DNA of 45,413 nt. Origin: Candidatus Anaerobiospirillum stercoravium (GTDB lineage: Bacteria; Pseudomonadota; Gammaproteobacteria; Enterobacterales; Succinivibrionaceae). The notes under the pieces are model-generated. The model did no database searches. It was not told the origin of the DNA and saw only the letters and a program-made list of their open reading frames with translations. The DNA lies in assembly GCA_019113025.1 (NCBI GenBank), contig DXIF01000160.1, positions 1-45,413 on the forward strand. Direction: 5' to 3'. Below are positions 14,101-38,440 of this stretch, one piece after another; within the stretch, counting starts at the first letter, position 1; every line of letters begins with the position of its first letter. A program made the translations under genes and the position numbers.

Positions 14101-17100
14101 CTGAAGTAAGCTTGCATGCGCCAAGCGTAGCGGCTGCGGCAGTAAGGCCAAAAGCTCGAGGCTGTCTTGGTTGGTGCCATCAAGCTCCATTAAGGCCTCG
14201 GGGCTGATAATTTGGCTTAAGGCGGTACTTAGAGCTTGCGCCGTATGAGGCTGAGCGCGCCACGCGCGCACCCAGCTTAAGACCGTGGCGTTGCTGCTCT
14301 GAGTTTTGATGAGCCCGGCCAGCAAGGATGCCAATACTGGTAGGTCAGCGGCTGTCGGCTGCTCAACCCAGCGCCCAAAGGCTACTTGATGCTGCAAGAG
14401 GCAGCGGCTGGCATAGCTGGGGCTCAGCAGGAGCAGGGCGCGTAGCGCATCGGGCTCTTGGTGCTGGAGCTTAAAGCTGACCATGCTCTCTAACATCGAA
14501 CCTAAGACATTGGGCTTACCCCCAAGGCTAGGCCGCTCTTGCGCTTGCTGCAAGATCGGTCGCAAATCTGCTGAGAGCGCGAGCAGTGCGTCCCCCAAAG
14601 CGCCGGCGACCGCACCAAAGTGCCGCCCTAAGATCATGAGGTTGGTTACCACCAAGCCTAAGCGCTCCGCATCGGTTTGCTTCAGTAACTGGGCGTAGAG
14701 CTCAGGCTCAACTGCGGCACTCAGCTGCAAGAGCTGGTAGATAGTACTAAGCTCACTCTCCGTGTAATCCATGAGATTTAAGGACAGCCCCGCCTGGCAC
14801 AGCGCCAGGAGCTGCTCGCGGTCGCGCGCCGTGGGTTTGGTTATAAGGGCCATTAACGCCGTGATTTGCGGCAGCGGTAACTGCGCTAAGGTCGATGGGG
14901 GCAAGAGCTCCCAGCAGGTGCGCCGGGCGCTCTTACTTTTGGCATGCGTCCAGAGCGCCGCGCACCAAGTGCAGTCAGCCTCAGCGGTGCTTAGCGCCGC
15001 GGCCACGGTGGCAAGCCCCACGCTATGAACCAAATAGAGCCACGCCGCTAAGGCCTCAGGCTGAGCGCTCAAGGCGCGCGAAAATGGGCGCACCTCGTTG
15101 GTAGCGTTTTCAGGGGACGACAGCGGCACCAAGCGCAGCGCTTGGGCTAGGGTCTTGAGCACCAAGTTAAGGGCGCGCGCGTCGGCGCGCTGCAAGTAAG
15201 AGCTGAGTGTCACTTGTTGGGTACTCAAGAGCGAAGTAAGCGCGGATGCAAGCGTCGCTAAGGCGTGGCCGCTGAGCTTAAGTAACAGCTTATGGGCTTG
15301 TGTCCACAGCGCCTCAAGCTCAGGATGGACGAGGGCCGCTGCTAGCAGCGCCGCTAAGCGCTCTGGGTCTGCCTCCGCCGCGGGCGCCTCCGGCTCAGTT
15401 AGCGTGGTGAGCAAGGCCGCGCCCCAGCAGGCGGCGCGCTCGGGCGCGCTGGCGCTCAGAGCACTCAACCAGCGGGTCAGCAGGGGGCCATCCAGCGCGG
15501 CGCTGAGGCCGCACAGCCACGCTGCCTCAGGCTGTGCGGGAAGCTGCTTACTTAGCGCGCTAAGTAGTGCTGCTTGATCCTCGGGATTGAGCTCAGTCAG
15601 GCCCGCGGCGATGAGCTGAGGATGCGCAGTTAAGAGTGCGCTGAAGCGCTCCGGTTGAGTCTGATAGGCTGAAAGCAGGGCCGCGGCAGCCGCGGTGGCG
15701 GTTGCGGCGGTTGCGCTCGGCGGATTGCTGGGCACGGTGCTCGGCGCTGCGCTCAGCGCCGCGCTAATTTGGGCCTCAAGCGCGTCTAGGTCAGAGCAGC
15801 ATGGGACGAGTTCGCTGTAGTCGTGACCAAGCGCAGCATAGGTGCGCTCAGGGGTGAGGCTCAGCTCTGAGGTAAAGAGTGCTAATAGCGCGCGCTCGGG
15901 GGCGAGCTCGGCCAGAGCGGCCGCAAAGTCAGGGCCGCTGGCGCTCTGGAGTACGCTGCTTAAGCCCAGATAAGCGGCGACGACGCTGAGCTCGCAACTT
16001 AGGGCCTCAGTGCCGTGCAGCTGCTGAATTAAGGTGTGCAGGGCATGCCCGCGCTCGCTGCTGGGGGCGGGGCGTAACAGTGCGCCCAGGTAGCTATGGA
16101 GCAATTGCTCGCAGCATAGCAGCAAGTGTAGCTGCGGATTATGGGCGTCGTGCTGTGCTAGGTGGTACAGCGTCGCCGCGCTTAAGGCCGCTATGATATG
16201 GGGCAAGACCTGAGGCTTTGCTCCTAAGTAGGAACCGAGCTCGCCTGCCCTCAGCTGATGCTTAAGCTCAGTTATGGACGCTAAGGTCAGGGTGCTCAGA
16301 GGCAAATGGGCGCCGACGGCACTAAGCCACATCGTTCCGGGCTGCTGTAAGTAGTGCTGGCAGGCGCTCAGGGCACCGGTGAGCGCGGACAGATCTGGGG
16401 CCACCGTGGCGTTGGGCGACGGAGCTAAAGCAGCGCTTAGTACCTTAAGCCACGGGCTGGCGACGATGAGCTGGGCTTGATCGGCGCGTTGGCGTGCGTG
16501 ACTGCTATTGCGGGCGATGCTCAGGGCCGCCACCGCCATAAGGTCGAGATAATCGAGGCGACTTGCAGCCACACATTGGGTTAGCAGCTGCGCTGCTTGC
16601 GCTAGCAAGGTAGAGCTGGGCGTCGCCCGATGATATATCTGGATAAAGGCACTGTTGTAGGCCGCTAATAGCGCTAACAGCTCGTAGCGCTCAACCGCGC
16701 TGATGGGGCGCACGCCCACCACACACAGGCTCTCGCCTTGGGGCATGAGCTCAAAGAGCACAGGCTGCGCCACGCTATCTATCTGGGCTAAGTTGGGAGC
16801 GCTGGGATCTAAGCTTGCAGGGGTGCTGGTTAGGCTGATGGTGGCATCATGCTCGGCGCTGGGGGCAATGCTACTAGGCGTAAAGCTCGTAAGGCGTGCG
16901 CGCTCAACCTCGTTTAAGGCCCAGAGGGGCGTGGCGATGGTGCCTAAAGGCTGGTTTGATGCCGCATCAGGGACGGTTATGGTTAACAGGCCCAAGTGCA
17001 GCGTCGGGAGGACGGTTGGCAGCTGGCGCTGCAAACTCAGGGCGCGCTCACTGCACTGAAGACTCAGCGCGCTCCACGGGGCACAGGTGATGGGATCGCG

Positions 17101-17217
17101 TCCAGCGCTTTGAGCTTTATGCCAACGCGCGGCGACGGCGCTCAGCGCCGCAGCAGCAGGGGTGAGGTGCGGCGCGCGGCCCTGTGGTGCGTCCTGCGTG
17201 CTCAATTGGTCTTGCAT
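5191..17217 (-). CDS. Giant 4008-aa dual helicase: long Ala/Leu-rich N-terminal region, RecQ-like SF2 core, UvrD-like SF1 core
   Basis: RecQ-like: ALISLPTGGGKSVLFQGP, FFIFDEAHCISQWGKEFRPDY, MCSATMT, AFGMGMDLPNIHYVLHAEPSAVFEDYLQEVGRAGRS. UvrD-like: NVMAGPGSGKTHLLALRCVRLI, YIMIDEFQDITHARLELLHLL, TIGDINQSIYGFNR, STMHKVKGLEYDLVLIP, EERRLYYVAYTRARKYLYLYYG. One uninterrupted ORF. Confidence 0.92.
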   Translation of the reverse strand: MQDQLSTQDAPQGRAPHLTPAAAALSAVAARWHKAQSAGRDPITCAPWSALSLQCSERALSLQRQLPTVLPTLHLGLLTITVPDAASNQPLGTIATPLWALNEVERARLTSFTPSSIAPSAEHDATISLTSTPASLDPSAPNLAQIDSVAQPVLFELMPQGESLCVVGVRPISAVERYELLALLAAYNSAFIQIYHRATPSSTLLAQAAQLLTQCVAASRLDYLDLMAVAALSIARNSSHARQRADQAQLIVASPWLKVLSAALAPSPNATVAPDLSALTGALSACQHYLQQPGTMWLSAVGAHLPLSTLTLASITELKHQLRAGELGSYLGAKPQVLPHIIAALSAATLYHLAQHDAHNPQLHLLLCCEQLLHSYLGALLRPAPSSERGHALHTLIQQLHGTEALSCELSVVAAYLGLSSVLQSASGPDFAAALAELAPERALLALFTSELSLTPERTYAALGHDYSELVPCCSDLDALEAQISAALSAAPSTVPSNPPSATAATATAAAAALLSAYQTQPERFSALLTAHPQLIAAGLTELNPEDQAALLSALSKQLPAQPEAAWLCGLSAALDGPLLTRWLSALSASAPERAACWGAALLTTLTEPEAPAAEADPERLAALLAAALVHPELEALWTQAHKLLLKLSGHALATLASALTSLLSTQQVTLSSYLQRADARALNLVLKTLAQALRLVPLSSPENATNEVRPFSRALSAQPEALAAWLYLVHSVGLATVAAALSTAEADCTWCAALWTHAKSKSARRTCWELLPPSTLAQLPLPQITALMALITKPTARDREQLLALCQAGLSLNLMDYTESELSTIYQLLQLSAAVEPELYAQLLKQTDAERLGLVVTNLMILGRHFGAVAGALGDALLALSADLRPILQQAQERPSLGGKPNVLGSMLESMVSFKLQHQEPDALRALLLLSPSYASRCLLQHQVAFGRWVEQPTAADLPVLASLLAGLIKTQSSNATVLSWVRAWRAQPHTAQALSTALSQIISPEALMELDGTNQDSLELLALLPQPLRLAHASLLQTNPHFTAFCAQELGPIIAPLTAVLTDEYLSGSLELLGLTPTYDWAPQWHLPEEKRALATACLTLCCALSDKEVRAQRPALSTALLANASSELLSAVATLSAPDFAPLMVLLPTRLYQRAARVQPWIFPLTLTLAHKVGCPLSHLSEELGSYLFLGPPELAPKLAALTPLRPSSALATVPAAPVLSLEDWARARREQELAPLTLSDLSATAPHDRMYLIKSALPLLEPAAPALYELLRLALKGAPGLVALSALPPPARAPIATALGATTTSSLALSAAELKALRALVVSAADLAAAGFPVTAWDELNALDNLTPAQLKGRHVLLVGTTEELENDSLMPHALALGLNPYDYQQQGQEDLTLALEQYSEQLNVLSRATAHRLLQVHGDTTSATAEHATEHAAENVEENEVEPRVILTRLLDGTINLYTMAAAPQRALWSACASVESMELTPAIWDENAGELPLFNYVSTTEPPSGTNAPAEALPEAASALARDLEQGSADPGLLAARCSYRSRVRARYFAAQVALLVQLAALHPEQPLCYLIEYERDVAPLKAYLDAHYPELSARIQLLSLSALEPDFLCADTKAPTSDADQVLAALPEGALIVINSLELNAHQDLVELSAGQSVQRSLYHLGLGGLSAHLTTLQAALRAGGTRADQALLLILVHGLSTALYLKLGGRINQFHYYLLEPALNEGWETPSDLDSLVRLLPCYLKPFASRADKLRAQELAQPFFSATTETAAALASLESMAQHLAQTAPSPVIAANEPELAPESVPHAEEAAVPSAVVTAHSPLLLNPQQGAEVLARLEGNDEAGQLELTKALRAISHMFIGGHEWRSYQLTALPPLIKRSADALISLPTGGGKSVLFQGPAWYRSFYSGRLSVVITPLRALMVDQVRALRAKNYLSVDYLSSDRPSYETRQVLERIRSGVTTLLYITPERLRSRYFVKLLTERYEQDGKQGEFFIFDEAHCISQWGKEFRPDYIYAAQLIAQLRSEYDFNVIMCSATMTTQVVTDLEQYLRPEHLLLGEIGTNYNPIRPHIGLSTQEVPSDLHARVAAIIDFIRKEHIDFEQSRMLVFCQLRHSTEALCVALESYAAHLNYLYHYQQRHPDFKFEPEPLPEVLRKLDDQPSYLSSIELGSTDFAPDFAANFASNSASNLAPESDPNEPTTELERKLTELLAAMDQAAQEEEAASSFGAAVEVQENERYAQEASPTELFASDSALKQRLSAALTDENSFSYRPNKLHDLCCDVAVIDPDDPILKLAAHVGFFHAQMSARAREHVFTRYQENLERAIAAQVKSQSALWFNDQAALNERSGSTLEQSLLSSNQPLYLLCATKAFGMGMDLPNIHYVLHAEPSAVFEDYLQEVGRAGRSQAQYEAAFPQDPVTGARALLPALCLYHQEDFDKAMERLNKSLISWDHLMLADDLVRTYVSRFGPMSAALTEPVVVPSDLFARDVSQVLAPSDPENISNKALAHNSTLLFYHLEDLGRIKLGFRAPCPLQLTLVRTPFTQLLRNREGFSFAPNEARNAAPSTRLSAREQLALNCVITVLQAQLNDFDQACRATDEANEANEADTNLPEHVALIFDLQYFLQQCNHNTPLKERLSLGSTINALLELMAAGALNLNLPFSLSFNLGHSVDYARRFNQAEVQYYVSRAVTTPELTAPVLPHLNLTLRLCALILERSYQDFRAEIKRRSEAATFERFDDSTNERRREPLPDYPGLGFTNNWLTTTLRELIAPYADEFMVEGDIGLEGNPAVPWLTGQGARKRDLNTYLEHHLLPDVKSGVSALLQLMPHVKLTKVASENDTTPATLVVKTWSESFYLLLDLLYEDSWHLLTELNRTQGLNPVTTTAVTFARLAENTDVTPDDSAQDSTGPEQVAPELTAPTYLNNWAEIVFALGLRHESSDALLNNYELSQSRAQVREWYWELSRELNTYGYFSQLLAFLQAVGLVRHSAMISHGYELTVTEECVARPLDSAPNLESPFFQRRKQFELLAQFKRARLALMQVYCQEVSDDKRRLFIEEFFKSQDYGDYIKHIGNFSDANSSILSAITASNLALEEEKLRANPEQWAVYQSPVDLSLNVMAGPGSGKTHLLALRCVRLIYQEHVAPESVLILAYNRAVVVELKTRLDRLFTNLGLRKIGRKLAIFTFHSLAKVCLGNALNDIDPNKWECTLITQLKAQPQLFIKRFGALRYIMIDEFQDITHARLELLHLLKQCYRTPLYLFTIGDINQSIYGFNRVANMLQDPNATGSRSISAAQYAACLGPEPYYRDLARLFEPTTLSLKLNYRSFPKILARAEPYALNPEYTAHSAPLLEKYAPKKTAYCALFDVTNAAIYQAQRQQRRVRYWAQDLSNIISGLVKKSNEKAQLLAQEAAAQLGLQDSAACERYEQLIFAAAALSANSAAAQRAQQEPPTQVARTVEGITEQAAHPQEAYAPQASKEAPAPEAIPAVPRPHSADELLLQSKYLRITSLALFFRTNNEVYRALEQVQALPPEILAQVEVRVQGSSSIALWREREYYALAHFIKAQGAHELKLGPVTTKLTAAALPLHAPLEQLYAQLQPLTHEDSATALKLLTQSLMERYPNWDQAKLDMAYCLALSFNATMISGITYTWTDLLEYYLDLLTRDDGGHCYKLYESMAGQHLVHHQRVSLTLSTMHKVKGLEYDLVLIPPSSADLPLMSHDYLKPEPGQLRFSKGRYDSNEQEQWAAYNLPLSADEQADLAEERRLYYVAYTRARKYLYLYYGERERALDENRRFITPDSQLLWSENDDSVDNYVISFNASAARAGINDYIARHVKVHDPVLIVAQGDHCYIQHQAQAQTSAQALRPGYGCGAQYGAQASAPLITIGRLSAKSKIRAQMQAHHVATLTGLFVSTIVVWTYEDTVKADIKRLQDAIAQQQSFTPQLQGLKQEELDLSDAKLRAALAARLNVTLFAPYWAPEVAARGYCYLVVLAGRGTPHGPVS

Positions 17218-25899: not shown

Positions 25900-26784
25900 T
25901 TAGTGGGGGTCAGGCTGGGCGGGGGCGTGTTGGAGCGCCTTGTCCATGCTGCCGGAGGCAAAGCCCTCGAGATCTAAGGTGTAGTGATCGTAGCCCTCCA
26001 GGCGCTGCAGGATCGGGAGAATGAGCGCGCGGTACTCAACAGCGCGACTTAAGGCGTCGGGGTCAAGTTCAAGACGCAACAAGCGCGCTTGCGGGTACGC
26101 GCGGACCCGCACATTGGAAAAGCCCAGCTGATGGAGCTGCGCCTCGGCCGCGCCCACTTGGGCTAAGGCCTCTGCTTTGAGCTCGGTGCCATACGGAAAG
26201 CGGGTGGCCAGGCACGGACTCGACGGCTTATGGGCAATGTTCAGCCCGAGCTCCTTGAGCATGCCCCGTACTTGGGCCTTGGTGATGTTGGCCGCAGCCA
26301 GCGGACTTTTAATGTCGAGCTCTGTTAAGGCTTGCAGCCCCGGGCGATACTGTTTTTGATCGTCAGCATTGGAGCCGTCGATGACCACGGTGCAGCCCAG
26401 CTCGTGCGCGCGCTGCTTGAGCGCGCCCATCAGCGCCTTTTTGCACAAGTAGCAGCGATTGACCGGGTTGTGGGCAATGAGCGGAAGTTCATCGAGCGTG
26501 AGCACCTCGTGCGGAATGTTAAAGGACTGCGCGAGGTCTTGGGCCTCCTTGAGCTCGTGGCTAGGGTGCATGGTGGTGCTCACGGTAAAGGCCACCAAGC
26601 CCCGGGGCAAGGTGCCATGCTTGTGGCGCAAGCCTAAGAGCACCAAGAGCAAGGTGCTGTCGACGCCCCCGGAAAAGGCTAAGGCAATCTTCTCTGCGTT
26701 GAACTTTGAGAGCTCAACCTCCAGGCGCACCTGAGCCGCCTGCAGCTCCTCAGGTGGCAGCTCAGGGAAATTAGCGCTGTGCAT
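25900..26784 (-). CDS. larE: ATP-dependent sulfur transferase LarE (NPN cofactor biosynthesis), three-cysteine type
   Basis: PP-loop KIALAFSGGVDSTLLLVLLG; NRCYLCKKAL; SSPCLATRFPYG; adjacent to larC/larB. Start MHSANF at 26784. Confidence 0.9.
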   Translation of the reverse strand: MHSANFPELPPEELQAAQVRLEVELSKFNAEKIALAFSGGVDSTLLLVLLGLRHKHGTLPRGLVAFTVSTTMHPSHELKEAQDLAQSFNIPHEVLTLDELPLIAHNPVNRCYLCKKALMGALKQRAHELGCTVVIDGSNADDQKQYRPGLQALTELDIKSPLAAANITKAQVRGMLKELGLNIAHKPSSPCLATRFPYGTELKAEALAQVGAAEAQLHQLGFSNVRVRAYPQARLLRLELDPDALSRAVEYRALILPILQRLEGYDHYTLDLEGFASGSMDKALQHAPAQPDPH

Positions 26785-28288
26785 AGAGTTCTCCTTTGAC
26801 GATCGCCTCAACTTCCTTGAGCGGACGGCCGCAAGTGGCTGCCAGCTCCTTTAGGCTGTCAAATTCGACGTAGTCGACGCTATAGGCGCCCAGCTCCGGG
26901 TCGAGCTCACAGTGCTTGGTGCTCACAGGCCCCAGGCTTGAGTTAAAGGTGCCTTGGCGGCGCTGCATGATGTAGCGCTCGTGGCGGGACAGGCGCACGC
27001 CAATGGCGCTGGTCTCCGTCAAGATGAGGGTCACCAGGGGCTTGACCTGCGCTTCATGGCACAGCACGCACAGCTCAAAGCCGGGGCGATTTTTCTTCAT
27101 GATGAGGGCGCGCAGGCTGACGTCCACCGCGCCTGCGGCGCTCAGGCGCTCAAAGAGCGTGCCCATCAGCTCGCCGCTTAAGTCGTCGATATTGCTCTTA
27201 ATCTCGACAATGCTGTCGCGATACGGTGACGGGGTGCCGCCTGCGCCACCTGCTGCGCTGTCTAATGCTGCGCCTAATGAGGAACCTGATTTGCTGGCAT
27301 TCGTTGGGGTGGTCACCTCATGAAGCACGGTGGCGCGCACAAAACTTGGCTTGTCATAGTTGCGCTTGCCCGCACCGTAGCCCACTGCGGCAAAGGTCGT
27401 GAGCGGGGCGGGTTCAAATTTGCACTCTAAGGCCGCGAGCATGGCCGCACCGGTCGGGGTCACCAGCTCGCCATAGCAGCGCCCGGTGACCATAGGGAGC
27501 TGATGGGCAGCGCAGATATTGGCCACCGCCGGGACCGGAATGGGCAGTAGGCCATGTTGGCATTGCACCTCACCATAGCCCTCGCCTAAAGGCGTAGCGT
27601 AAGTCTGCGTGATGTTTAAGTCGGTGACGCACACGGCAAAGGCCAAGATATCGGCGATGGAATCAAGCCCGCCCACCTCATGGAAGTGGACTAAATCAGG
27701 GGAGGTGCCATGGGCCTTAGCTTCAGCCGCGGCAATAATGGTGAAGACCTTGATTGCCAGCTCTTGGGCTGCTGGTACGGCGCTGGAGTGCTTAATGAGC
27801 GCGACCACATCGCTTAAGGCGCGATGATTATGGCTGTGACCATGCTCATGGCTATGGTCATGGTCATGGCCGTGCTCATGGTAGTGCGCGTGCTCATGGC
27901 TGTGGCTGTGCTGAGACGCCGCTGCCGGTTGTAGCTGCGCGGCGCTGGTTAAGAGCTGCGCGCTTGAGAGCGGGGCCTTGATGGTGAAGGTGGGAGCCGG
28001 GGCCGGGGGCGCGGATGGTACTGTGGTATGGGGCTTTGCTTGTCCGTAGCGGTCGGGATGGAGATAGGCTAGGTCGGAATCGTAGTTGTCTTGGTCGAGT
28101 TTGACCGTAAAGTCGCGCATGCTGATGCTCGCTTTCGTGACCTGCTTTTGTTCAATGCTAAAGCCGTTAAGCGGCAAAGTGCCTAAGACGCGCTTTACCT
28201 CAGCAAAGCTAGCGCCCGCGTCGAGCAAGGCCGCGACCATCATGTCGCCGCTGACACCGCGTTGCACATCTAAACTCAAAATCGCCAT
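26771..28288 (-). CDS. larC: LarC, NPN cofactor nickel insertase, single full-length ORF with a His-rich loop
   Basis: MAILSLDVQRGVSGDMMVAALLDAGA; HFHEVGGLDSIADI; GRCYGELVTPTGAAMLAAL; IVEIKSNIDDLSGELMGTLFERL; start at 28288. Confidence 0.92.
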   Translation of the reverse strand: MAILSLDVQRGVSGDMMVAALLDAGASFAEVKRVLGTLPLNGFSIEQKQVTKASISMRDFTVKLDQDNYDSDLAYLHPDRYGQAKPHTTVPSAPPAPAPTFTIKAPLSSAQLLTSAAQLQPAAASQHSHSHEHAHYHEHGHDHDHSHEHGHSHNHRALSDVVALIKHSSAVPAAQELAIKVFTIIAAAEAKAHGTSPDLVHFHEVGGLDSIADILAFAVCVTDLNITQTYATPLGEGYGEVQCQHGLLPIPVPAVANICAAHQLPMVTGRCYGELVTPTGAAMLAALECKFEPAPLTTFAAVGYGAGKRNYDKPSFVRATVLHEVTTPTNASKSGSSLGAALDSAAGGAGGTPSPYRDSIVEIKSNIDDLSGELMGTLFERLSAAGAVDVSLRALIMKKNRPGFELCVLCHEAQVKPLVTLILTETSAIGVRLSRHERYIMQRRQGTFNSSLGPVSTKHCELDPELGAYSVDYVEFDSLKELAATCGRPLKEVEAIVKGELYAQR

Positions 28289-28316
28289 GAAATCCTCCTT
28301 AGCTGGTGCTGCTAGT

Positions 28317-29102
28317 TTAGCGCGCAAAGTGGTGCTTGGCGTCCCCGTGCACCGCCAAGCGATTGATTTGGCTTGCAATAAAAGCCGCGCCAAAGCCGTT
28401 GTCGATATTGACCGTGGCTACCCCATTAGAGCAGGAATTGAGCATGGTTAAAAGCGCCGCCAGACCATGGAAGTTGGCGCCATAGCCCACTGAGGTGGGC
28501 ACTGCGATGACCGGGTTGCCCACCAAACCTCCGATGACGGAGGCCAGGGCCCCTTCCATGCCTGCTACTGCAATGGTGCAGTTGGCCGCCTGAATGGTCT
28601 CGACCTTTGAGAGCAAACGGTGTAGGCCCGCCACGCCCGCATCGTAGATGCGCTCAACCTTGGCGCCAAAAAATTCGCACACTTGCGCCGCTTCCTCGGC
28701 GACCTTGATGTCGGCCGTGCCCGCGGTAACCACGCAAATCATACCTTCGCCGCTTTTACCCCGGCGGTCCGGACTTTGGGTTGAGATGATGGCGCTAATC
28801 GGGTCGTAAAAGAGCTCAGGACTGGTGATTTTTGCTTGCAGCAGCTGCGCTTGCTCCTGACTGCAGCGGGTGCCGAGAATGGCGCCTTCGGTTGTAAGTA
28901 AGTGCTGGAAAATCGCCACTAAATGCTCATCGGCCTTACCTTGGCAAAACACCACCTCGGCCATGCCGGTGCGCAAGTGGCGGTGGGTGTCGAGCTTGGC
29001 ATAGCCTAACTCTAAATACGGGGCGGCTTTGAGCTGGGCCTTGGCCGCGTCAATTGAGAGGGTGCCAGCTTTAACGTCGTGCAGCAGGGCATCAAGATCC
29101 AT
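28317..29102 (-). CDS. larB: LarB, nickel pincer cofactor biosynthesis carboxylase/hydrolase
   Basis: GYAKLDTHRHLRTGMAEVVFCQGKADEHLVAIFQHL...; VVTAGTADIKVAEEAAQVCEFFGAKVERIYDAGVAGLHRLL; NPVIAVPTSVGYGANFHGLAALLTMLNSCSNGVATVNIDNGFGAAF. Confidence 0.92.
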   Translation of the reverse strand: MDLDALLHDVKAGTLSIDAAKAQLKAAPYLELGYAKLDTHRHLRTGMAEVVFCQGKADEHLVAIFQHLLTTEGAILGTRCSQEQAQLLQAKITSPELFYDPISAIISTQSPDRRGKSGEGMICVVTAGTADIKVAEEAAQVCEFFGAKVERIYDAGVAGLHRLLSKVETIQAANCTIAVAGMEGALASVIGGLVGNPVIAVPTSVGYGANFHGLAALLTMLNSCSNGVATVNIDNGFGAAFIASQINRLAVHGDAKHHFAR

Positions 29103-29149: not shown

Positions 29150-30103
29150 TTAAGGCAATTGGTTGCGGTCATGGGTTAGATGGCAGCGCAGGGCATGCCC
29201 GGCCGCGATGAGTTGGAGCTCCGGTGCCCGCTTCAGGCACTCTTCCGTGGCCTGAGGACAGTTCATGAGCCACGGGCAGAGCTTAGCTTGCTGCATCGGA
29301 CAGGTGAGGGTGGGGGCGCCGTTTTGGTTGGGCAGCTGGTTGCTGTGACCTGCCAAGACCTCCGCTGCTTGTTTGAGGCTTTGGACATAGGGGTGACAGA
29401 GCTGGTCGGCGGGGCCTTGCTCTAAGATTTGGCCCTTAAACATCACCGCGATCTCTGGGCATAACTCTTGGGCGCTGGTCAGGTCATGAGTGATAAAGAG
29501 TACGCTCATGCTCGATGCGGCTACCGCGTTCTTGATGACCGTAAGGCAGATGTGCGCCGACTCGGGATCTAAGGCCGAGGTGATTTCATCGCAGACGAGG
29601 AGCTGGGGCTGGAGCGCCAAGCTGCGGATAAGGTTTAAGCGCTGAAGCTGCCCGAGGCTGACCTCGGCGGCGCGGCGCTCCAGCAACTTGGGGTCAAGCT
29701 GCACCTCGTGCATCAGCGCCAGCAGCTGCTGGAGGGCCGCGCTCTTGGTCAGACCTTTGAGGTTGAGCAAAGGCGTGAGCGCATATTGCTGCAGCGACAT
29801 ATGTGGCGCGATCGCGCTGCTAGGGTTTTGGTAAAGGTACTGCATCTGCGCGTAGTAGCGTTGCAGCGCGGGGCCTGAGAGCTGGGAGAGGTCTTGGCCT
29901 AGGAAGCGCACCGTGCCGCTAAAGGGCACGGTGCGGGTCAAAAGGCGCGCCAGGGTCGTCTTGCCACAGCCTGATTGTCCCAACAGGCCGAGGATGTGCC
30001 CCGCTTGTAGCTCAAGCGTGAGCTGGTTTAAGGCCGGCAGCAGCTTGCCGGAGGCGAGGCGATAGTGCACGCTCACCTGCTCATAACTTACTACCGGGGG
30101 CAT
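29150..30103 (-). CDS. nikE: ABC transporter ATPase, NikE/OppF-like
   Basis: GLLGQSGCGKTTLARLL; EVSLGQLQRLNLIRSLALQPQLLVCDEITSALD; position in nik-type cluster next to lar genes. Confidence 0.75.
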   Translation of the reverse strand: MPPVVSYEQVSVHYRLASGKLLPALNQLTLELQAGHILGLLGQSGCGKTTLARLLTRTVPFSGTVRFLGQDLSQLSGPALQRYYAQMQYLYQNPSSAIAPHMSLQQYALTPLLNLKGLTKSAALQQLLALMHEVQLDPKLLERRAAEVSLGQLQRLNLIRSLALQPQLLVCDEITSALDPESAHICLTVIKNAVAASSMSVLFITHDLTSAQELCPEIAVMFKGQILEQGPADQLCHPYVQSLKQAAEVLAGHSNQLPNQNGAPTLTCPMQQAKLCPWLMNCPQATEECLKRAPELQLIAAGHALRCHLTHDRNQLP

Positions 30104-30831
30104 GGGCTGGCCTCCGGCGGGGTGGTTTGTTGCGGCGTGATCGTGCCGTCATGCAAGATGTAGCTGCGCTGGGCCATAAAGTGCGCTTCATCGGGATGAT
30201 GGGTGACAAAGAGCAAGGCAAAGCCTAGTTCCTGTTGCAGCGCTTTGAGCTCAGTTAATACCGCTAAGCGGGTGTTGAGATCTAAGGCGGAGGTGAACTC
30301 GTCGGCTAAGATGAGCTTAGGCTTGAGAATGAGGGTGAGCGCCAGCGCCACGCGTTGGCTCATGCCCAGCGAAAACTCATAGCTGTACTGATGCAAGATG
30401 CGCTCAGGATAAGCCAGTTCCAAGCGATAGAGCAGGTCAAGCGCCGCGTGCGTGATGTCGGCCTTACTGCGCCCCGGTTCATGGGCGCGTACCGCCTCGA
30501 TAAAGTGGCTTAGCAGCTTTTGGCGTTCATCGAAGTTTTCGCTGATGTTTTGCCCCATGAGCGCCAAGCCCGGACCACGCAGTGCGCGCCATTGCTGGGG
30601 CTTTAAGTGCCGGAGGTCGTGGCCTAAAAACTTCATTTGGCCTGCTACGGTGAAACGCTGTTTGGGCAGCAAGCCGCAGATAGCCTTGAGCAAGGTGCTT
30701 TTGCCTAGGCCCGAAGTGCCGAGCAAGGCCACGGACTCCCCGGCGTGCACCGTTAGCATCACGTCGTGCATCAGCACTTGCTCGTTAGTGCTGATGCTCA
30801 TAGCCGTAAGTTGCAGCAGCGGCTCAGTCAT
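30091..30831 (-). CDS. nikD: ABC transporter ATPase, NikD/OppD-like
   Basis: MTEPLLQLTAMSIS...SVALLGTSGLGKSTLLKAICGLL; FSLGMSQRVALALTLILKPKLILADEFTSALD. Confidence 0.75.
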   Translation of the reverse strand: MTEPLLQLTAMSISTNEQVLMHDVMLTVHAGESVALLGTSGLGKSTLLKAICGLLPKQRFTVAGQMKFLGHDLRHLKPQQWRALRGPGLALMGQNISENFDERQKLLSHFIEAVRAHEPGRSKADITHAALDLLYRLELAYPERILHQYSYEFSLGMSQRVALALTLILKPKLILADEFTSALDLNTRLAVLTELKALQQELGFALLFVTHHPDEAHFMAQRSYILHDGTITPQQTTPPEASPCPR

Positions 30832-32449
30832 GGACGCGCACCTTATCGTCGATGAAGTAGTGGTCAAAGCTGTAAAGGTGTAGGTGGTTAAGCTTGGAGC
30901 TTGCGACCTCATTGATTTCGATGTGGTTGATGAAGAAGGCCGCCACGTCGGATTTAAGCTCGGTGAGCAGATCCTGCGTCAGCGCTTGGCGCCCCTCTTG
31001 ATCAAAGGTCTGGGCCATGGCACTCAACAGCTGTTCAAGCTTTGGACTGTGGTAATGGCCAAAGTTGGCATCGCCTGCGCTGTGGAAGCGGCTGTTCATA
31101 AAGACGTACGGGTCACCCGTGGGCAGTGTGCTGTCGTTGGCGCTAAAGAAGTCAAAGTCCCCGGAGGCCATGATGGCCGGTAAGTTCTCGGCCGGGAACA
31201 AGTTGAGCTTGACCCCCAAGGCGGCAAAGTCTTGCTGTAAGCATTGCGCGATCAGGGCGCTGTCAGCCGAGCCATGGTCGGCTTTGAAGTAATAGTCAAA
31301 GCTTAGCTCCTGCCCGTGAACGTCGCGGGTGCCATCGCCATTGTGGTCGACAATGCCCGCATCATCCAAGATTTGCTTGGCTTGGGCGATGCGATAAGGA
31401 TTGCTCGGGGCAAAGCCCTGGACGAAGTTTGGGGCAATCAGGCTGGCTGCGGGCATGCCCCCAATCAAAGACACGATTTGCTCGCGGTTGATCGCAAGGT
31501 CTAGGGCACGGCGAATCTGGTCTTGGGCCAAGAGCTGATTTTCATGGTTGATATAGACTATGTTGGTGCGCGGGCTGATGCGCCTTTTGACGACATAGTC
31601 GGGATTGTCGACAAAAAGGGGCAAGGTCGCAAAGTTGACTGTGGCAATGAGGTCAACTTGCCCTGATTGCAGCGCGAGGCTGCGCGATTGCTCCTCAGGC
31701 AGATACAGGAACTCTAGTTCCGGTATTAAATCTGCGCTGCCCTTGCGATAGTGCGGGTTGGCGCGCACCGTGACGCTTTGGTTGGGGGTAAAGGCCGTGA
31801 CTTGGTAGGGGCCAGTGGTAATCGGGTGCACGATGGTGACATCAGGCCAAGCAGCATCGTCCGTGCTGGGCAGAGCGTCTTCGGGCAGCTTGATCAGAGC
31901 AAAAAGCGGCTCGCACAGATTGTAAAAGAGCTCCGGCACCGGCTCTTTCGTGGTGATGGTAAGCTCAGTGGCGCTCTCAACCGTGATGTGGTCGAGCTTG
32001 AAGTATTGCGGCGCGCGCGGATTTAAGGCCATGACGCGCTCAAGATTGTTTTTGACATCAACGGCGGTCAGCGCGGTACCATCGCTAAAGGTGAGGTTAG
32101 GACGCAGCGTGATGCGGTAATTGAGCGGGTCAATTACCTCATAGTCTTGGCATAGCCACGGCTCCAAAGCGCCGTTATCGCTCAGGCGCAGCAAGGTTTC
32201 CCCCGCGCCCACGCGCACTAAGACCCACGCGTCGAACATATTCTTGGGGTCAAGCGAGCCCTCTAAGTAGAAGATCCCGGCCTTGATCGCCTCAACCGGC
32301 GCGCTTTGCTGCGCTTGTGCGCTGATTTGTTCGTCATGCTGCTCGTGGGGCGAGCAAGCGCTAAGGGTGAAAGCACTGAGGGCGCAGAGCGTTACGGCGC
32401 TCAAGGCGCTCAAGGCGCGGGCAGGCAACGGCGATTTTGGGGTAAACAT
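30824..32449 (-). CDS. nikA: Substrate-binding lipoprotein, NikA/DppA family (probable nickel)
   Basis: Lipobox TLSAC; LRPNLTFSDGTALTAVDVKNNLERV; ITTGPYQVTAFTPNQSVTVRANPHYRKG; DLAINREQIVSLIGGMPA. Confidence 0.75.
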   Translation of the reverse strand: MFTPKSPLPARALSALSAVTLCALSAFTLSACSPHEQHDEQISAQAQQSAPVEAIKAGIFYLEGSLDPKNMFDAWVLVRVGAGETLLRLSDNGALEPWLCQDYEVIDPLNYRITLRPNLTFSDGTALTAVDVKNNLERVMALNPRAPQYFKLDHITVESATELTITTKEPVPELFYNLCEPLFALIKLPEDALPSTDDAAWPDVTIVHPITTGPYQVTAFTPNQSVTVRANPHYRKGSADLIPELEFLYLPEEQSRSLALQSGQVDLIATVNFATLPLFVDNPDYVVKRRISPRTNIVYINHENQLLAQDQIRRALDLAINREQIVSLIGGMPAASLIAPNFVQGFAPSNPYRIAQAKQILDDAGIVDHNGDGTRDVHGQELSFDYYFKADHGSADSALIAQCLQQDFAALGVKLNLFPAENLPAIMASGDFDFFSANDSTLPTGDPYVFMNSRFHSAGDANFGHYHSPKLEQLLSAMAQTFDQEGRQALTQDLLTELKSDVAAFFINHIEINEVASSKLNHLHLYSFDHYFIDDKVRVHD

Positions 32450-33309
32450 TAGGACTTTCTCGCAGGGCGATAGCTGAGTGCTAACAAATTGCAGCACAGG
32501 GCGCTCACGAAGATAAAGATTAAAGGACCTACTAATAAATGGGGCGCACTTTGCAAGTAAGGCTGGCTCTCAAAGAGCATCGAGCCCCACTCCGGGATGG
32601 GGGGCTGGGTGGCTAGGCCTAAAAACGACAAGGTGGCTAAGGCCAAGATGGCGGCGCTCAAGTCGAGTAAGGCGGTGAGCATAAGCTGCGCTTGAAGCTG
32701 GGGCATCAGATAGTAACGTACGAGCTGCCACATGTTTTCCCCGGCCAAGCGCGCCGCTTGAATATACTCTTCTTGGAGGATGACGTGCGCCCGGTTGTAG
32801 CTAAGCTGCGCAAAGCGCACCCACCAAAACAGGGCCAAGGCCAAGATGCTGTGGGTAAGGCCCACTCCTAGCATGCCCACTAGTAAGATTACCGCTAATT
32901 GCTGGGGAAAGGCCATCAGGACATTGACCACGGTGGTAAAAGCGCGCGCCACGCGCCCTGAGTACAGGGCCGCCGCAAGACCAATGGTGGTGCCCACGAT
33001 TGAGGCGCCGCCAATCAGGACCGCGGCCAAGGGCAGTGAGTAGTACGAGCCCCAGAGCAGGCGGCTTAATTGGTCGCGTCCTAAGCGATCGCAGCCGAGC
33101 CAATGCTCAGCGCTCGGGGCCGCAAGGCTCTGCCTGATGTCCATGGTGTAGGGGTCATAACCAGTGAGCAGCCCGTACCATACCGGGCCGGTCAGCACGA
33201 GGGTAAAGAAGGTAAGAGTGAGCCCCAAGATCAGGTTAAAGCTGAGGTTAAAGTGGTTACGCGGACGCTGCGGCACCACAGCGGGCGCGGTCATAACTGA
33301 CTTAAGCAT
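32449..33309 (-). CDS. nikC: ABC transporter permease, NikC/DppC-like
   Basis: AAPSAEHWLGCDRLGRDQLSRLLWGSYYSLPLA; LDLSAAILALATLSFLGLATQPPIPEWGSMLFE. Confidence 0.8.
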   Translation of the reverse strand: MLKSVMTAPAVVPQRPRNHFNLSFNLILGLTLTFFTLVLTGPVWYGLLTGYDPYTMDIRQSLAAPSAEHWLGCDRLGRDQLSRLLWGSYYSLPLAAVLIGGASIVGTTIGLAAALYSGRVARAFTTVVNVLMAFPQQLAVILLVGMLGVGLTHSILALALFWWVRFAQLSYNRAHVILQEEYIQAARLAGENMWQLVRYYLMPQLQAQLMLTALLDLSAAILALATLSFLGLATQPPIPEWGSMLFESQPYLQSAPHLLVGPLIFIFVSALCCNLLALSYRPARKS

Positions 33310-34402
33310 GGGCGACCTCGCTGAGGGTGCGGCGGCTAAAGCGCTTGGTGCACAGAGCCACCGCGGCGTTTAAGCCGGTAAAGATTAAGACGCTGTAGAG
33401 CACATAGGCCACGATGAGATAGAGGTCGCGATAGGTGATCGCCTCCAAGGCGATAAAGCCGAGGCCATGCAAGGAGAAGATGCGCTCAATTACGACTGTG
33501 CCGCACAATAAATGACCGATGCTCAGGCTCAGTAAGGGCAGCAAGCTGGTGGTGGCGCGGGGCAGCACGTGGTGCGTGAGTTGGCGCGTCAGGCTAATGC
33601 CGCGGGCACTAAGGGCCGTAAGATAAGGTGCGCGCAGTTCACTTAAGATGACGGTGCGCACTTGGCGCAGGTAAAAAGCCACTAAGGGCAGAGCAAGGCA
33701 CAGCGCCGGGGCGATGAGGTCTGCGCTGCGGCTCGGACGTAACGTGGTGATGATTCCTAATTTGACGCCAGCAAGATAGAGCACCAAGAGGGCTAACAAG
33801 AAGCTAGGTGCCGACAGCACCAAGATGCTCAGGCCATGGCAGAAGCGATCGATGATACCGTGCGGTTTTAAGGCGCAGTAGATGCCAAGGGGCAGGGTCA
33901 GCAGCATCAGGAAGGCAAAGGCTAGGGTGCACAGAGGCAAGGATACCGCCAAGCCCTCGGCCATAATGGTGCTGACCGGGCGGCCAAAGTGGCTGGATAG
34001 CCCTAGATTGCCTTCGGTGAGGACGCCGCTAAGCCACATTAAGTATTGCTCGGCTACTGGTAGGTCCAGACCAAGCTTTTGGCGTAAGGCCGCGATGACT
34101 TCATGCGAGGTCACGCCCATTGGCTGCAAGTTGTTAAGGGCGGCATCACCTGGAGCTAGCAAGGTCAGGGCAAAGGTGGCCCCGCTTAATAGCAGTAACA
34201 GTAAGGTCAGGGCCGCGAGCTTACGCGCAAGCTTGATCCCAAGCCGCAGCGCCACGTGTAGGGCGCGCGGCAGCGTGCGCGCCAGCGGGCGCGGCAGCGC
34301 GGCGTGCGCTAAGGGGACTGCTGTTTGGTGCGCTGCTTGATGCACGGCTAGGTGCGGAGCTGAGTGCGGCGACGGTGGCAGCACTTCAGTGGGCGTTGGC
34401 AT
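33302..34402 (-). CDS. nikB: ABC transporter permease, NikB/DppB-like, with a His/Pro/Ala-rich N-terminal extension
   Basis: YLMWLSGVLTEGNLGLSSHFGRPVSTIMAEGL; LPRATTSLLPLLSLSIGHLLCGTVVIERIFSLHGLGFIALEAITYRDLYLI. Confidence 0.8.
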   Translation of the reverse strand: MPTPTEVLPPSPHSAPHLAVHQAAHQTAVPLAHAALPRPLARTLPRALHVALRLGIKLARKLAALTLLLLLLSGATFALTLLAPGDAALNNLQPMGVTSHEVIAALRQKLGLDLPVAEQYLMWLSGVLTEGNLGLSSHFGRPVSTIMAEGLAVSLPLCTLAFAFLMLLTLPLGIYCALKPHGIIDRFCHGLSILVLSAPSFLLALLVLYLAGVKLGIITTLRPSRSADLIAPALCLALPLVAFYLRQVRTVILSELRAPYLTALSARGISLTRQLTHHVLPRATTSLLPLLSLSIGHLLCGTVVIERIFSLHGLGFIALEAITYRDLYLIVAYVLYSVLIFTGLNAAVALCTKRFSRRTLSEVAHA

Positions 34403-34463: not shown

Positions 34464-35381
34464 CTAGAGCCCGACCGTGAGGGTGAGCACGTGCGTGGCA
34501 AAGCCTAAGATTAGGGCGCTTAACACCACAAAGAGCAGGTAATAGCAAAAGTGCTTGAGGCCAAGCACCGCTTTGAGCGCGGCGAGATTGTTGATCTTGG
34601 TGGCAGGCCCTGAGATCATGAACGCCACCGCCGCAGCCTTGGACATGCCGGACGCGAGCCACATGACGAGAATTGGGATGGTGCCACCGCCACACATATA
34701 AAGCGGCACGCCTAAGGTGGCTGCATAGAGGATGCTCATGGGATTGCCCTTACCTAGTACTTGGGCGATGGCATCTTGCGGAATGTGAATTGAGAACAGG
34801 GCCGAGAGCAACATACCGGCGATGAAGTAAGGCAAGGTGGCCTTGAGGTTGCGCCCGACGTTTTTGAGGTAGCGCATGACTAGGTTCGGGTCGGTATCGT
34901 TATTGCGTCCCGGGCCAAAGCTAGTGAAATTGAAAAATGCTTTGTTGTTAAAGCAGTATCTGAGCAGAAAGCCTGCCGCGAGCGCCATGATAAGGCAGGT
35001 GACGATGCGCAGGGTGAACACAGTAGGGCCAAGGGCCAAGGAATAGGCAATCAGTTGCGGGTTTAACAGCACGGAGGCCACCATAAAGCAGCCCAAGTAG
35101 TCTTGGCGCACGCCTTGGTGATAAAGCGCTGCCACTAAAGGCAGCGTGCCATACATGCAAATAGGGGAGGCAAAGCCCAGTAAGGCGGCGATCACAAGAC
35201 CTAACAAGCCCATGCTGACGCCTACCTGCGCGGTCAACAGGCGCTTTAACTGATCTTTACCAAATACCGAGATGGCCGAGCCTAGCAGCGTGCCTAGGAC
35301 ATAAAACCAGAACAGCTGCCGTACTTGGATATCCAGGTAGTAGTACAGGTAGATCGCTTCACGCTCGATTAAGTCTAGCAC
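34464..35381 (-). CDS. Permease of the YraQ/ArsP (DUF318) type
   Basis: Multi-TM; repeated P-x-Y/M-C-type signatures GFASPICMYGTLPLVAALYHQGV and GVPLYMCGGGTIPILVMWLASGM. Confidence 0.65.
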   Translation of the reverse strand: MLDLIEREAIYLYYYLDIQVRQLFWFYVLGTLLGSAISVFGKDQLKRLLTAQVGVSMGLLGLVIAALLGFASPICMYGTLPLVAALYHQGVRQDYLGCFMVASVLLNPQLIAYSLALGPTVFTLRIVTCLIMALAAGFLLRYCFNNKAFFNFTSFGPGRNNDTDPNLVMRYLKNVGRNLKATLPYFIAGMLLSALFSIHIPQDAIAQVLGKGNPMSILYAATLGVPLYMCGGGTIPILVMWLASGMSKAAAVAFMISGPATKINNLAALKAVLGLKHFCYYLLFVVLSALILGFATHVLTLTVGL

Positions 35382-35423: not shown

Positions 35424-36437
35424 TTACTTATCTAAGGACACCAGCTGATAGTTCTTTTGGCCTAAGCCCATCTTCACGGCGTGATCTAAGATGTGGGGGC
35501 CTTGACGGCTTTCCATACGCTCGATGAGTGAGGCGCCATCCGGGGCTTGGTAAACCAAATCAACGCAGGCTTGGTCTAAGGCGACAGGGTCAAGTGATGC
35601 CAAGATACCAATGTCATGCATATCGACCGGAGCAGGGTCACCATCGCAGTCGCAGTCAACCGACATATTGTTCATGACCGAGATGTAGAGCATCTTCTCG
35701 CCCTGGTCGAAGTAGTCGCTGACGGCGTCAGCCGCTTCGGCCATCGACTCGATGAACTCAACATGCTCTGGGGTGTCAATTGGACCGTAGGCGCCCCACT
35801 CGAACTTATCGGTGTGACCTGCGGTGTGAATCAGATTCTTGCCCTCTTGCGAGGCGACACCAATTGAGATGTTCTTGAGCGCGCCGCCTAAGCCGCCCAT
35901 GGCGTGGCCCTTAAAGTGAGTCAGTACCACCATGAAGTCGTAGTTGGCAAGATGGCTGCCTACCCGGTCGGATTTTAGGTGCACTCCGCCGGTAACCGGG
36001 ATCTCCATCGAGCCCTCTTCGTCCATGATGTCGACGGGCGCAATGGCATCAAAGCCGTGATCCTTGATGACCTGGCGGTGGGCCAAGGTCGACGAGCGTG
36101 AGCCGCCGTAGGCGGTATTGCACTCAACGATGGTGCCATCAAACTTTTGCACTAAGTCCTTGATGAGCTCAGGGGCTAAGTGATTGTTGTTACCAGCCTC
36201 ACCGGTCGAGAGCTTGAAAGCAACCTTGCCTGAAGGCACGCGCCCTAAGGCCTCGTAGGCGGCCATTAAGCCTGCAGGGCTGATGTCCTTGGTGAAGTAA
36301 ACCACAGGAGCTGAGCTCTCAGTGACCCGGTGCTCGAGCTTTGAGAAGTCGATGTCAGCGGCTTGCGCAGTCGAGCCCATGACGCCGCTTAAAGCCAGAG
36401 CCATGAGCGTGGCTTGAGCTAATTTCTTGAGTTGCAT
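35424..36437 (-). CDS. DUF362-domain protein with a Sec-type signal peptide; first gene of the lar/nik operon
   Basis: MQLKKLAQATLMALALSGVMGSTAQA/ADIDF; YDFMVVLTHFKGHAMGGLGGALKNISIGVASQEGKNLIHTAGHTDKF; SVDCDCDGDPAP...DIGILASLDPVALDQACVDLV. Confidence 0.8.
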   Translation of the reverse strand: MQLKKLAQATLMALALSGVMGSTAQAADIDFSKLEHRVTESSAPVVYFTKDISPAGLMAAYEALGRVPSGKVAFKLSTGEAGNNNHLAPELIKDLVQKFDGTIVECNTAYGGSRSSTLAHRQVIKDHGFDAIAPVDIMDEEGSMEIPVTGGVHLKSDRVGSHLANYDFMVVLTHFKGHAMGGLGGALKNISIGVASQEGKNLIHTAGHTDKFEWGAYGPIDTPEHVEFIESMAEAADAVSDYFDQGEKMLYISVMNNMSVDCDCDGDPAPVDMHDIGILASLDPVALDQACVDLVYQAPDGASLIERMESRQGPHILDHAVKMGLGQKNYQLVSLDK

Positions 36438-36492
36438 AACCACATCCTAAGATTGTTGTTAGGAAATTGTCCGTTTGAGGTCATTGAGTCGC

Positions 36493-36550
36493 AGTTTGAC
36501 TAACTTCGGTCGCGTAAGTTTTGGCGCGTAAGTTCGGTCGCGGTCAAACT
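36493..36550. promoter_or_regulatory. Three 14-nt iterons enclosed by an 8-bp inverted repeat, upstream of the DUF362-lar operon
   Basis: AGTTTGAC-[TAACTTCGGTCGCG][TAAGTTTTGGCGCG][TAAGTTCGGTCGCG]-GTCAAACT. Confidence 0.7.
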
Positions 36551-36566
36551 TTGGCTCAGTCTCACT

Positions 36567-36866
36567 CTAAAACAAGAGCGCGGCGCGGTGGGGGATGAGA
36601 GAGAATCGGGCAAGGATTAGAGAAAAAGTGCTAAAGATCCGCGCCCGTAGGGGCGCGCTCGCGCTGCCTGAAGGCACACGGCCTAGGGCCTCATAGGTGG
36701 CCATTAGACCTTGGGGGCTGATATCCGAGGTGAAGTAGACCGTAGGCGCGCTCGCGGCGCTGACGCGGTGCTCAAGCTTGAAAAAGTCAATCTCCGCGGC
36801 ACTGACGCTGCCGCTTAAAGCTACCGCCGCGATTGCGGCATATAAGTGCTTAAGCTTCATAGCCAT
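36567..36866 (-). pseudogene. Truncated DUF362 paralog (signal peptide plus ~45 residues only)
   Basis: MAMKLKHLYAAIAAVALSGSVSAAEIDFFKLEHRVSAASAPTVYFTSDISPQGLMATYEALGRVPSG aligns to the adjacent DUF362 N-terminus, then switches to unrelated SASAPLRARIFSTF... Confidence 0.8.
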
Positions 36867-37432
36867 CTCCTAAAGTTGTGTTAGGCGTAAGACGCCAGAC
36901 TTTACTGTACCAGCCTCAAGGGGGAGTGCTGGGCTAGGGAGATAAATGAGCAAGCTTTTGAGAAAAAGGGTCAAGGGGGCGGGCGCTGCTTTTCGTTAGA
37001 ATGAAAGCAGTAGCAAAACAAGTGTCCAAGTTTTTTGCACAGGTGCAATACTCGGAGGCAAAGCCTCTCGGTGGCTAAATTCCTTGTTCCGAGCGCTTTA
37101 CTGGGTAGCCAACACCTCCAACTCGAGGATTCAGGCGTTCAAATTTTTGGACATTAGTTTTGTCACCGCTTCCAATGCGCCCCTTGCTGGAGCGAAGACG
37201 CAGGGCGTAGCGCTGGGTATGGCTGCTGCCAAGGTGCGGCCGCGGCGCCGCCTCGGCGTTGGGGGCGCGCTCGCAGCCCGTGCCGGGTGCTTGGTGCCCA
37301 ATCTTTGCTTTTGTGGCATTTGCCCCTTGCGTCTTACGCTCAGGCGGGCTATATCTGTTAAGAGCAAAGTGGTCACGTTAAGGCGTGGTGCCTTGGCGTG
37401 AGTACAGGACATGAGAGGCTTGAGGAGTGCCT

Positions 37433-38440
37433 ATGTCTGATTTAAACCAAATCTTTAGTGCTGCAGGGAGCCCAGGTGGCGCCGATGCCATCGATATGGC
37501 TCGTTTGTCCCATCGTACCGATGATACTGCCGCCCCTAAGGTTTACTTTACCCGTGAGATTACCCCGAAGGGCTTGCTTGCCGCTTACGAGGCCCTAGGC
37601 CGCGTGCCATCGGGCAAGGTTGCCTGCAAGTTATCCTCTGGTGAGGCTGGTAATAAGCACTATTTGCAACCGGCCTTGATCAAAGACTTGGTGCAAAAGC
37701 TTGAGGGTACGATTGTTGAGTGCAACACCGCCTATGAGGGCGCGCGTTGCCAAAGTGCCGACCACTGGAAGGTTATCAACGACCACGGCTTTACCGCGAT
37801 TGCTCCTTTTGACCTTATGGATGAAGACGGGGAAATGAAGCTCCCGGTTAAGCACGGCAAGTACTTATCCTACGATGTAGTGGGCGATCACTTAAGCCGC
37901 TATGACTTCATGGTCGTGCTCTCGCACGCGAAGGGTCACGCCATGGGGGGCTTTGGCGGCGCGCTCAAGAACATCTCCATTGGTGTGGCTTCGACCCACG
38001 GTAAGGGCTTAATCCACACCGCCGGCCGCACCGATAAGTTCGGCGCCTTTATGACTGAGGCCAACGGTGCCTTCCTTAGCATCGAGAGCCCAGAGCACAA
38101 CCAGTTTATCGAGTCGATGGCCGAGGCCGCGAGCGCCGTCTATGACTACTTTGACCAGGGTCAGCGCATGCTCTTTATCTCGGTAGTCAACAACCTCTCG
38201 GTTGACTGCGATTGCGACGGCAATGCCGCCCCACCATGCATGCGTGATATCGGTATCTTAGCTTCGTTAGATCCTGTCGCCATCGACCAAGCCTTTATCG
38301 ACTTAGTAAACCTCGCTCCAGATAACGGCCCTATGCTCGAGCGTATCCACAGTCGCAATGGCACCTTGATCCTAGATCGGGCCCAAGAGTTGGGTGTGGG
38401 TAAGAAGCATTACCAATTCATCGACTTAGATCGCGCTTAA
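37433..38440 (+). CDS. DUF362-domain protein without a signal peptide (cytosolic paralog)
   Basis: YDFMVVLSHAKGHAMGGFGGALKNISIGVASTHGKGLIHTAGRTDKF; SVDCDCDGNAAPPCMRDIGILASLDPVAIDQAFIDLV; no hydrophobic N-terminus. Confidence 0.85.
   Translation: MSDLNQIFSAAGSPGGADAIDMARLSHRTDDTAAPKVYFTREITPKGLLAAYEALGRVPSGKVACKLSSGEAGNKHYLQPALIKDLVQKLEGTIVECNTAYEGARCQSADHWKVINDHGFTAIAPFDLMDEDGEMKLPVKHGKYLSYDVVGDHLSRYDFMVVLSHAKGHAMGGFGGALKNISIGVASTHGKGLIHTAGRTDKFGAFMTEANGAFLSIESPEHNQFIESMAEAASAVYDYFDQGQRMLFISVVNNLSVDCDCDGNAAPPCMRDIGILASLDPVAIDQAFIDLVNLAPDNGPMLERIHSRNGTLILDRAQELGVGKKHYQFIDLDRA

Follow-up and report, generated by a model that had tools for sequence, protein, structure and literature searches.

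DUF362 proteins encoded with a nickel-uptake and NPN-biosynthesis operon as candidate LarA-fold users of the nickel-pincer cofactor

A 2024 mBio study reported that about 15% of genomes carry larB, larC and larE without larA and predicted for these larA-less genomes an NPN protein with a sequence and fold of its own (PMC11796402), and a review of Haloferax annotation names the same gap (PMC8305020). Which protein might use the nickel-pincer (NPN) cofactor where LarA is missing is a question raised in concrete form by the window analyzed here, a stretch of 45,413 nucleotides on contig DXIF01000160.1 of Candidatus Anaerobiospirillum stercoravium, in which genes for NPN biosynthesis accompany two proteins of the DUF362 family.

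A lar-nik operon headed by a DUF362 gene

The gene for the exported DUF362 protein (P0001) heads a minus-strand operon with the order DUF362-ArsP-nikBCADE-larB-larC-larE, in which the gaps measure at most 61 bp and which thus encodes the NPN biosynthesis genes larB, larC and larE together with this DUF362 copy (Table 1). The second DUF362 copy is placed divergently, 983 bp away. The operon combines nickel uptake with a complete NPN pathway, and DUF362 occupies the place where the gene for LarA might be expected. LarA is not found in the source assembly; since this genome is only 86% complete, the absence rests partly on the relatives. The source genome and 39 relatives make up a set of 40, of which 11 encode both DUF362 and LarB and 29 encode neither of them; Lar_N is detected in none of the 40. 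The order DUF362-ArsP-(nik)-larB-larC-larE is kept among the relatives with LarB. In the g3 and g13 genomes it is shortened to DUF362-ArsP-larB-larC-larE in the absence of nik genes; the operon of G004 is split over two contigs, and that of G001 is cut off by a contig end in larB.

Table 1. Positions of the DUF362 genes, their triads and the operon genes within the window.
Feature	Position	Strand	Remarks
DUF362 protein, exported copy (P0001)	35424..36443	-	Pfam DUF362; N-terminal Sec-like signal by eye; H180/K190/H206 at the LarA His174/Lys184/His200 positions
H-x9-K-x15-H triad, exported copy	35826..35906	-	codons H180 35904-35906, K190 35874-35876, H206 35826-35828
DUF362 protein, second copy, divergent, without obvious signal peptide	37427..38440	+	Pfam DUF362; H171/K181/H197
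H-x9-K-x15-H triad, second copy	37937..38017	+	codons H171 37937-37939, K181 37967-37969, H197 38015-38017
ArsP_1 (PF03773) permease	34464..35381	-	follows the gene of the exported copy after 42 bp; most conserved neighbor of the family
NikB-like nickel/peptide ABC permease	33302..34402	-	
NikC-like permease	32449..33309	-	
NikA-like substrate-binding protein	30824..32497	-	Opp5A_nikA, E 2.5e-79
NikD-like ATPase	30091..30912	-	
NikE-like ATPase	29150..30103	-	
LarB, NPN biosynthesis	28317..29102	-	NF033503, 282.9 bits, cut-off 175
LarC nickel insertase	26771..28393	-	LarC1 + LarC2 + PF01969, E 5e-113; His-rich insert; start probably ATG near 28288
LarE sulfur transferase	25900..26811	-	TIGR00268, E 7e-73

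The long His-rich insert of LarC, HSHSHEHAHYHEHGHDHDHSHEHGHSHNH, is a possible nickel store. Elsewhere in the window, positions 5191-17217 hold an ORF of 4008 residues with DEAD/Helicase_C as well as UvrD-type helicase domains, and positions 119-1837 a UvrD-like ORF of 572 residues. No structured RNA was found between 34000 and 39000.

Triad conservation and relationship to LarA

In LarA of L. plantarum, His174 is the catalytic residue, Lys184 provides the thioamide tether to NPN and His200 is a ligand of the nickel. An earlier note on this DNA had recognized the same H-x9-K-x15-H pattern in both DUF362 proteins, and on re-translation of the two ORFs its peptides, its codon positions and the spacing of 10 residues from His to Lys and 16 from Lys to His all proved correct. 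The LarA proteins retrieved for comparison carry this spacing as well (e.g. H176/K186/H202 in L161), as the note had stated. Because 2-3% of shuffled sequences also contain the pattern (2.6% and 2.3% for the two proteins, from composition alone), the bare motif is no more than a lead, suggestive as a feature of sequence and not decisive without other evidence. Both window proteins are full-length matches to Pfam DUF362 (PF04015; E 6e-45 and 3e-43, 154.1 and 148.9 bits against a cut-off of 24). When the two window copies are aligned with 84 proteins out of the 80 best related loci, all 86 sequences carry H180, K190 and H206, and it is this conservation that takes the motif beyond chance; the other invariant positions are H176, K178, K202, C264, D290 and R309. 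All three DUF362 types keep H180 and K190: ferredoxin-inserted DUF362s retain the triad, and the Tat-exported type preserves K178, H180 and K190 with the third histidine moved two residues nearer. Apart from that shift, the conservation across homologs on which the note had made its proposal depend is thus present. A further motif, S-V-D-C-D-C, is conserved at residues 261-266 of P0001 and in its relatives and is also found in ferredoxin-type DUF362s, but is absent in LarA and the Tat type; its CxC pair (C264/C266) is a possible extra metal site.

For the comparison with LarA structures that the note had suggested, an AlphaFold2 model of P0001 was built with 15 relatives (mean pLDDT 87.5) and searched against the PDB using Foldseek. 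The best 17 matches are all LarA-family chains (E 6e-6 to 2e-3, probability 0.99-1.00), separated by a clear gap from the next, unrelated match (E 0.02); the TM-scores against the LarA family are low, at 0.36-0.45. A model of the divergent Tat-type DUF362 (pLDDT 77) likewise has two LarA-family structures, 4nar and 7s91, as its top matches (E 9e-5). Judged on its predicted model, and without an atom-level superposition of the triad on holo-LarA, the exported copy meets the expectation of a LarA fold. A blind search of the whole PDB with the DUF362 profile puts LarA chains in the top two places (E 0.009 and 0.13), and hhalign of 118 DUF362 against 10 LarA sequences aligns 199 columns collinearly with H/K/H in register (E 5.5e-5, probability 66%). 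The hhalign probabilities are weak overall (1.6%, 31% and 66%, and 0.9% when the Tat type is used by itself), the value of 1.6% stemming from a shallow DUF362 alignment that was uninformative. A profile is required for such searches, as a phmmer search of the PDB with the P0001 sequence by itself returned only an irrelevant aminotransferase (E 0.26); sequence searches of the PDB found no solved DUF362 structure.

Whether the two families share a Pfam clan, a point raised in the earlier note, is answered by clan CL0471, which contains both DUF362 and DUF2088/LarA; the 2024 paper concerned employed DUF362 merely as an outgroup (PMC11770544). The note's inference that DUF362 is a remote LarA relative is accordingly supported by the Foldseek top matches, the triad conservation and the common clan. 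Since this relationship is already on record, the novelty lies in the cofactor proposal, and no proposal of NPN use by DUF362 was found in the open-access literature. The occurrence of the pattern in shuffled sequences would also permit the view that an unrelated fold carries it by chance, yet LarA structures are the top matches for two divergent DUF362 models, the triad is invariant in 86 sequences, and clan membership and the lar operon point the same way, so that this reading is already contradicted and can be regarded as virtually excluded.

The likeness to LarA has clear limits in the active site. Matches of both window proteins to Lar_N lie exactly over the triad but below threshold (13.0 and 12.1 bits against a cut-off of 23.3). 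No His occupies the position of LarA His108; the profile alignment places Ser115 of P0001 there, in keeping with the earlier note, which had been unable to locate an equivalent. H122 is conserved in 83 of 86 sequences but lies 7 residues past S115 and is out of register with His108. The SDxTRP motif of LarA (Asp72/Arg75) is missing, the aligned DUF362 segment being KLSTGEAGN. In the region of the LarA substrate-binding residues Tyr294, Gln295 and Lys298, the C-terminal half of DUF362 aligns only loosely, too loosely to count for or against the likeness.

Lar_N is also matched by the ferredoxin-inserted DUF362s of L174, L175, L179 and L183, of which L174 exceeds the Pfam gathering cut-off; such a ferredoxin-type protein reaches 27.5 bits against the required 23.3. 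Some ferredoxin-inserted DUF362s may therefore be misannotated as lactate racemase.

Co-occurrence with LarB and recurring gene neighbors

In order to view the link between DUF362 and NPN biosynthesis beyond the closest relatives, we analyzed 398 Pseudomonadota genomes, of which 37 encode LarB, six Lar_N (all of them LarB-positive) and 29 DUF362. DUF362 is present in 27 of the 31 genomes with LarB and without LarA, in none of the 6 with both, and in 2 of the 361 lacking LarB (Fisher p 3e-35, relatedness ignored). Nearly all DUF362s in the LarB-positive Pseudomonadota belong to one Tat-exported type, so that few independent events underlie this count; none of our co-occurrence p-values takes shared ancestry into account, and about three independent lineages are represented. 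In four genomes (G192, G200, G241 and G479) LarB is present with LarA and DUF362 undetected, which may be due to gaps in the assemblies or point to another NPN client. Four control genomes contain LarB and no LarA (Lar_N). Two of them, Synechococcus elongatus and Haloferax volcanii, also encode DUF362 (detected in Haloferax only at a looser E cut-off); in the other two, Corynebacterium glutamicum and Methanocaldococcus jannaschii, no DUF362 is found. DUF362 can therefore not be the sole answer, and other NPN users are needed.

A more differentiated picture emerges in a sample of 269 Lachnospiraceae genomes with a LarB background of 63%. The mixed DUF362 set shows a modest association (LarB in 68 of 89, p 0.001), which resolves into the type without signal peptide: signal-less DUF362 is accompanied by LarB in 26 of 27 cases (p 4e-5), while exported DUF362 in Lachnospiraceae shows no LarB association (42 of 62, p 0.45). 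This split was made by ORF length and chosen after seeing the table; a looser cut gives 32 of 36 (p 3e-4). Among genomes with close, mostly exported relatives of the window proteins, 27 of 50 lack LarB, and 26 of those 27 also lack LarC, with the triad intact. DUF362-bearing isolates among these LarB-less genomes include Bacteroides ilei, Bifidobacterium aesculapii, Bifidobacterium scaligerum, Paraprevotella clara and Odoribacter lunatus, and most DUF362s from LarB-less genomes look like lipoproteins. A strict one-to-one coupling of DUF362 and NPN is thereby ruled out, and because exported relatives occur without larB and larC, NPN use cannot be extended to every DUF362. The exported forms either import NPN, use the pocket otherwise or have lost NPN. 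Both window copies belong to a lar-linked lineage; as one of them is of the exported type, the claim of NPN use is firmest for the signal-less copy.

These LarB-less genomes lend some weight to a reading in which DUF362 keeps the LarA fold and the Lys/His pocket but binds a ligand other than NPN, which could be a different nucleotide, a cofactor linked to Fe-S or a metal ion, and lies near lar and nik genes by way of a common nickel/redox metabolism. The CxC pair, conserved in the subfamily but found neither in LarA nor in the Tat type, could then be a separate metal site. We consider this reading unlikely, given the near-exclusive replacement of LarA by DUF362 in the LarB-positive Pseudomonadota (27/31 versus 0/6) and given that genomes with LarB and without LarA need some NPN user, DUF362 being the sole LarA-fold protein found in them. 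Gene order also speaks for NPN rather than for shared nickel metabolism, with larB-larC-DUF362 on one strand in the Lachnospiraceae locus L253 and compact DUF362-ArsP-larBCE clusters devoid of nik genes in L268, L270 and L271.

A search for lar genes up to 10 kb away from the 80 best relatives recovered them in Anaerobiospirillum only; wider genome searches revealed other DUF362 types clustered with lar. Loci L219-L222, from a second proteobacterial group, share the order Fe-S aldo/keto reductase (Tat), DUF6599, twin-arginine DUF362, NapH/NapG-like polyferredoxin, larC, larB, larE (larC of L219 was missed by the ORF filter, and the DUF362 frame of L221 was seen under locus L206). Tat export is typical for proteins that fold and load their cofactor in the cytoplasm. 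Further Lachnospiraceae clusters, hand-picked without an exhaustive count, comprise larB-larC followed by DUF362 (L252), larB, larE and larC followed by cbiMQO-like genes (assigned by eye) and DUF362 (L259), a ferredoxin-type DUF362 divergent from larB with 18 bp between them (L255) and an Npun_F2552-like DUF362 close to larC-larB (L261). Aldo/keto reductases are found in 23 of the 80 related loci; Fe-S members were identified by Pfam in L236, L251 and the Tat operon, and similar-looking genes are present in L254 and L258.

The neighbor met most often is ArsP_1, which lies directly downstream of DUF362 on the same strand in 41-47 of 80 loci (L051-L130; median gap 9 bp), a translational coupling hinting at an unrecognized transport step tied to DUF362 or NPN. 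As side observations, ArsP_1 also follows larB-larC in Treponema (L248), in 10 Bacteroidota loci the DUF362 lipoprotein gene has a gene for a B12-receptor-like TonB-dependent receptor about 27 bp away, and in nine other loci DUF362 is found about 33 bp from an ECF S-component (the two arrangements being seen in L106, L064 and similar loci). All of these neighbors could be accommodated if exported DUF362 were no enzyme but an extracytoplasmic carrier or scavenger of NPN or nickel and ArsP_1 transported the cofactor or one of its precursors through the membrane, and a carrier would also account for DUF362 in genomes without larBC. We nevertheless regard such a role as improbable: there is no evidence of NPN circulating outside cells, the substrates of ArsP_1 are not established here, and signal-less copies and fused ferredoxins speak for catalysis.

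Proposed function and comparison with known families

With a LarA-like DUF362 protein heading an NPN operon and no LarA encoded, DUF362 may be the missing NPN user. We put at roughly 70% the probability that the window DUF362 proteins are LarA-fold users of the NPN supplied by the lar-nik operon; binding and catalysis are inferred, and the inference is strongly backed by the operon in the absence of NPN-binding data. By homology to LarA, NPN made by LarB, LarE and LarC would be attached through a thioamide to Lys190, nickel would have His206 as its fourth ligand, and His180 would act as acid/base over the cofactor (Lys181, His197 and His171, respectively, for the other copy). As no His is found at the position of LarA His108, two-base racemization is unlikely, and one-base hydride transfer, i.e. 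oxidation, reduction or isomerization of a hydroxy compound, appears the most likely chemistry, an inference without an assigned substrate. The recurring partners, namely Fe-S aldo/keto reductases, inserted ferredoxin domains and the NapGH-like polyferredoxin beside the Tat type, fit a redox role. How the Sec-type exported copy would obtain its cofactor is a matter of speculation, in which the adjacent ArsP_1 permease could take part.

More tentatively, and with somewhat less than even confidence, we suggest that DUF362 ranks among the main NPN clients still missing in the approximately 15% of genomes with larBCE and without larA, forming a second LarA-fold NPN family of one-base hydride-transfer oxidoreductases, rather than racemases, that are coupled to Fe-S or quinone partners and include periplasmic Tat-exported forms. 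DUF362 would in any case be a concrete candidate for the NPN client, and one for which a LarA-like fold is predicted, the opposite of what was expected for the larA-less genomes (PMC11796402). If true, a large family of unknown function, frequent among gut anaerobes, would gain a cofactor, and the chemistry of the nickel pincer would reach beyond racemization toward redox reactions.

Among known families, the window proteins belong over their full length to DUF362 (PF04015), which has no assigned function. Resemblance to the NCBIfam family Npun_F2552 (NF052623), also DUF362, is weak, at 106.9 bits for a lar-adjacent Lachnospiraceae protein and 81 bits for the Tat type against a cut-off of 500. 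With the LarA superfamily (DUF2088, Lar_N PF09861), which comprises racemases and epimerases of lactate, malate, gluconate and other 2-hydroxyacids, DUF362 shares the predicted fold, the spacing and register of the triad, clan CL0471 and the presence of larBCE and nickel-importer genes alongside. In contrast to that superfamily, the window DUF362s score below the Lar_N cut-off and lack both the histidine at the His108 position and SDxTRP; DUF362 proteins are moreover shorter, carry the CxC motif, have redox partners and are often exported, Tat-exported or ferredoxin-fused. They form a candidate family of NPN enzymes outside LarA yet with its fold. In the PDB, the DUF362 profile comes closest to LarA-fold members of the single-histidine LarA subfamily of B. 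wexlerae and S. plurextorum (PDB 9q3j and 9q3k), NPN enzymes with one catalytic His (PMC12611868). This subfamily, still part of DUF2088, keeps His108 and is without His174, whereas DUF362 shows the reverse.
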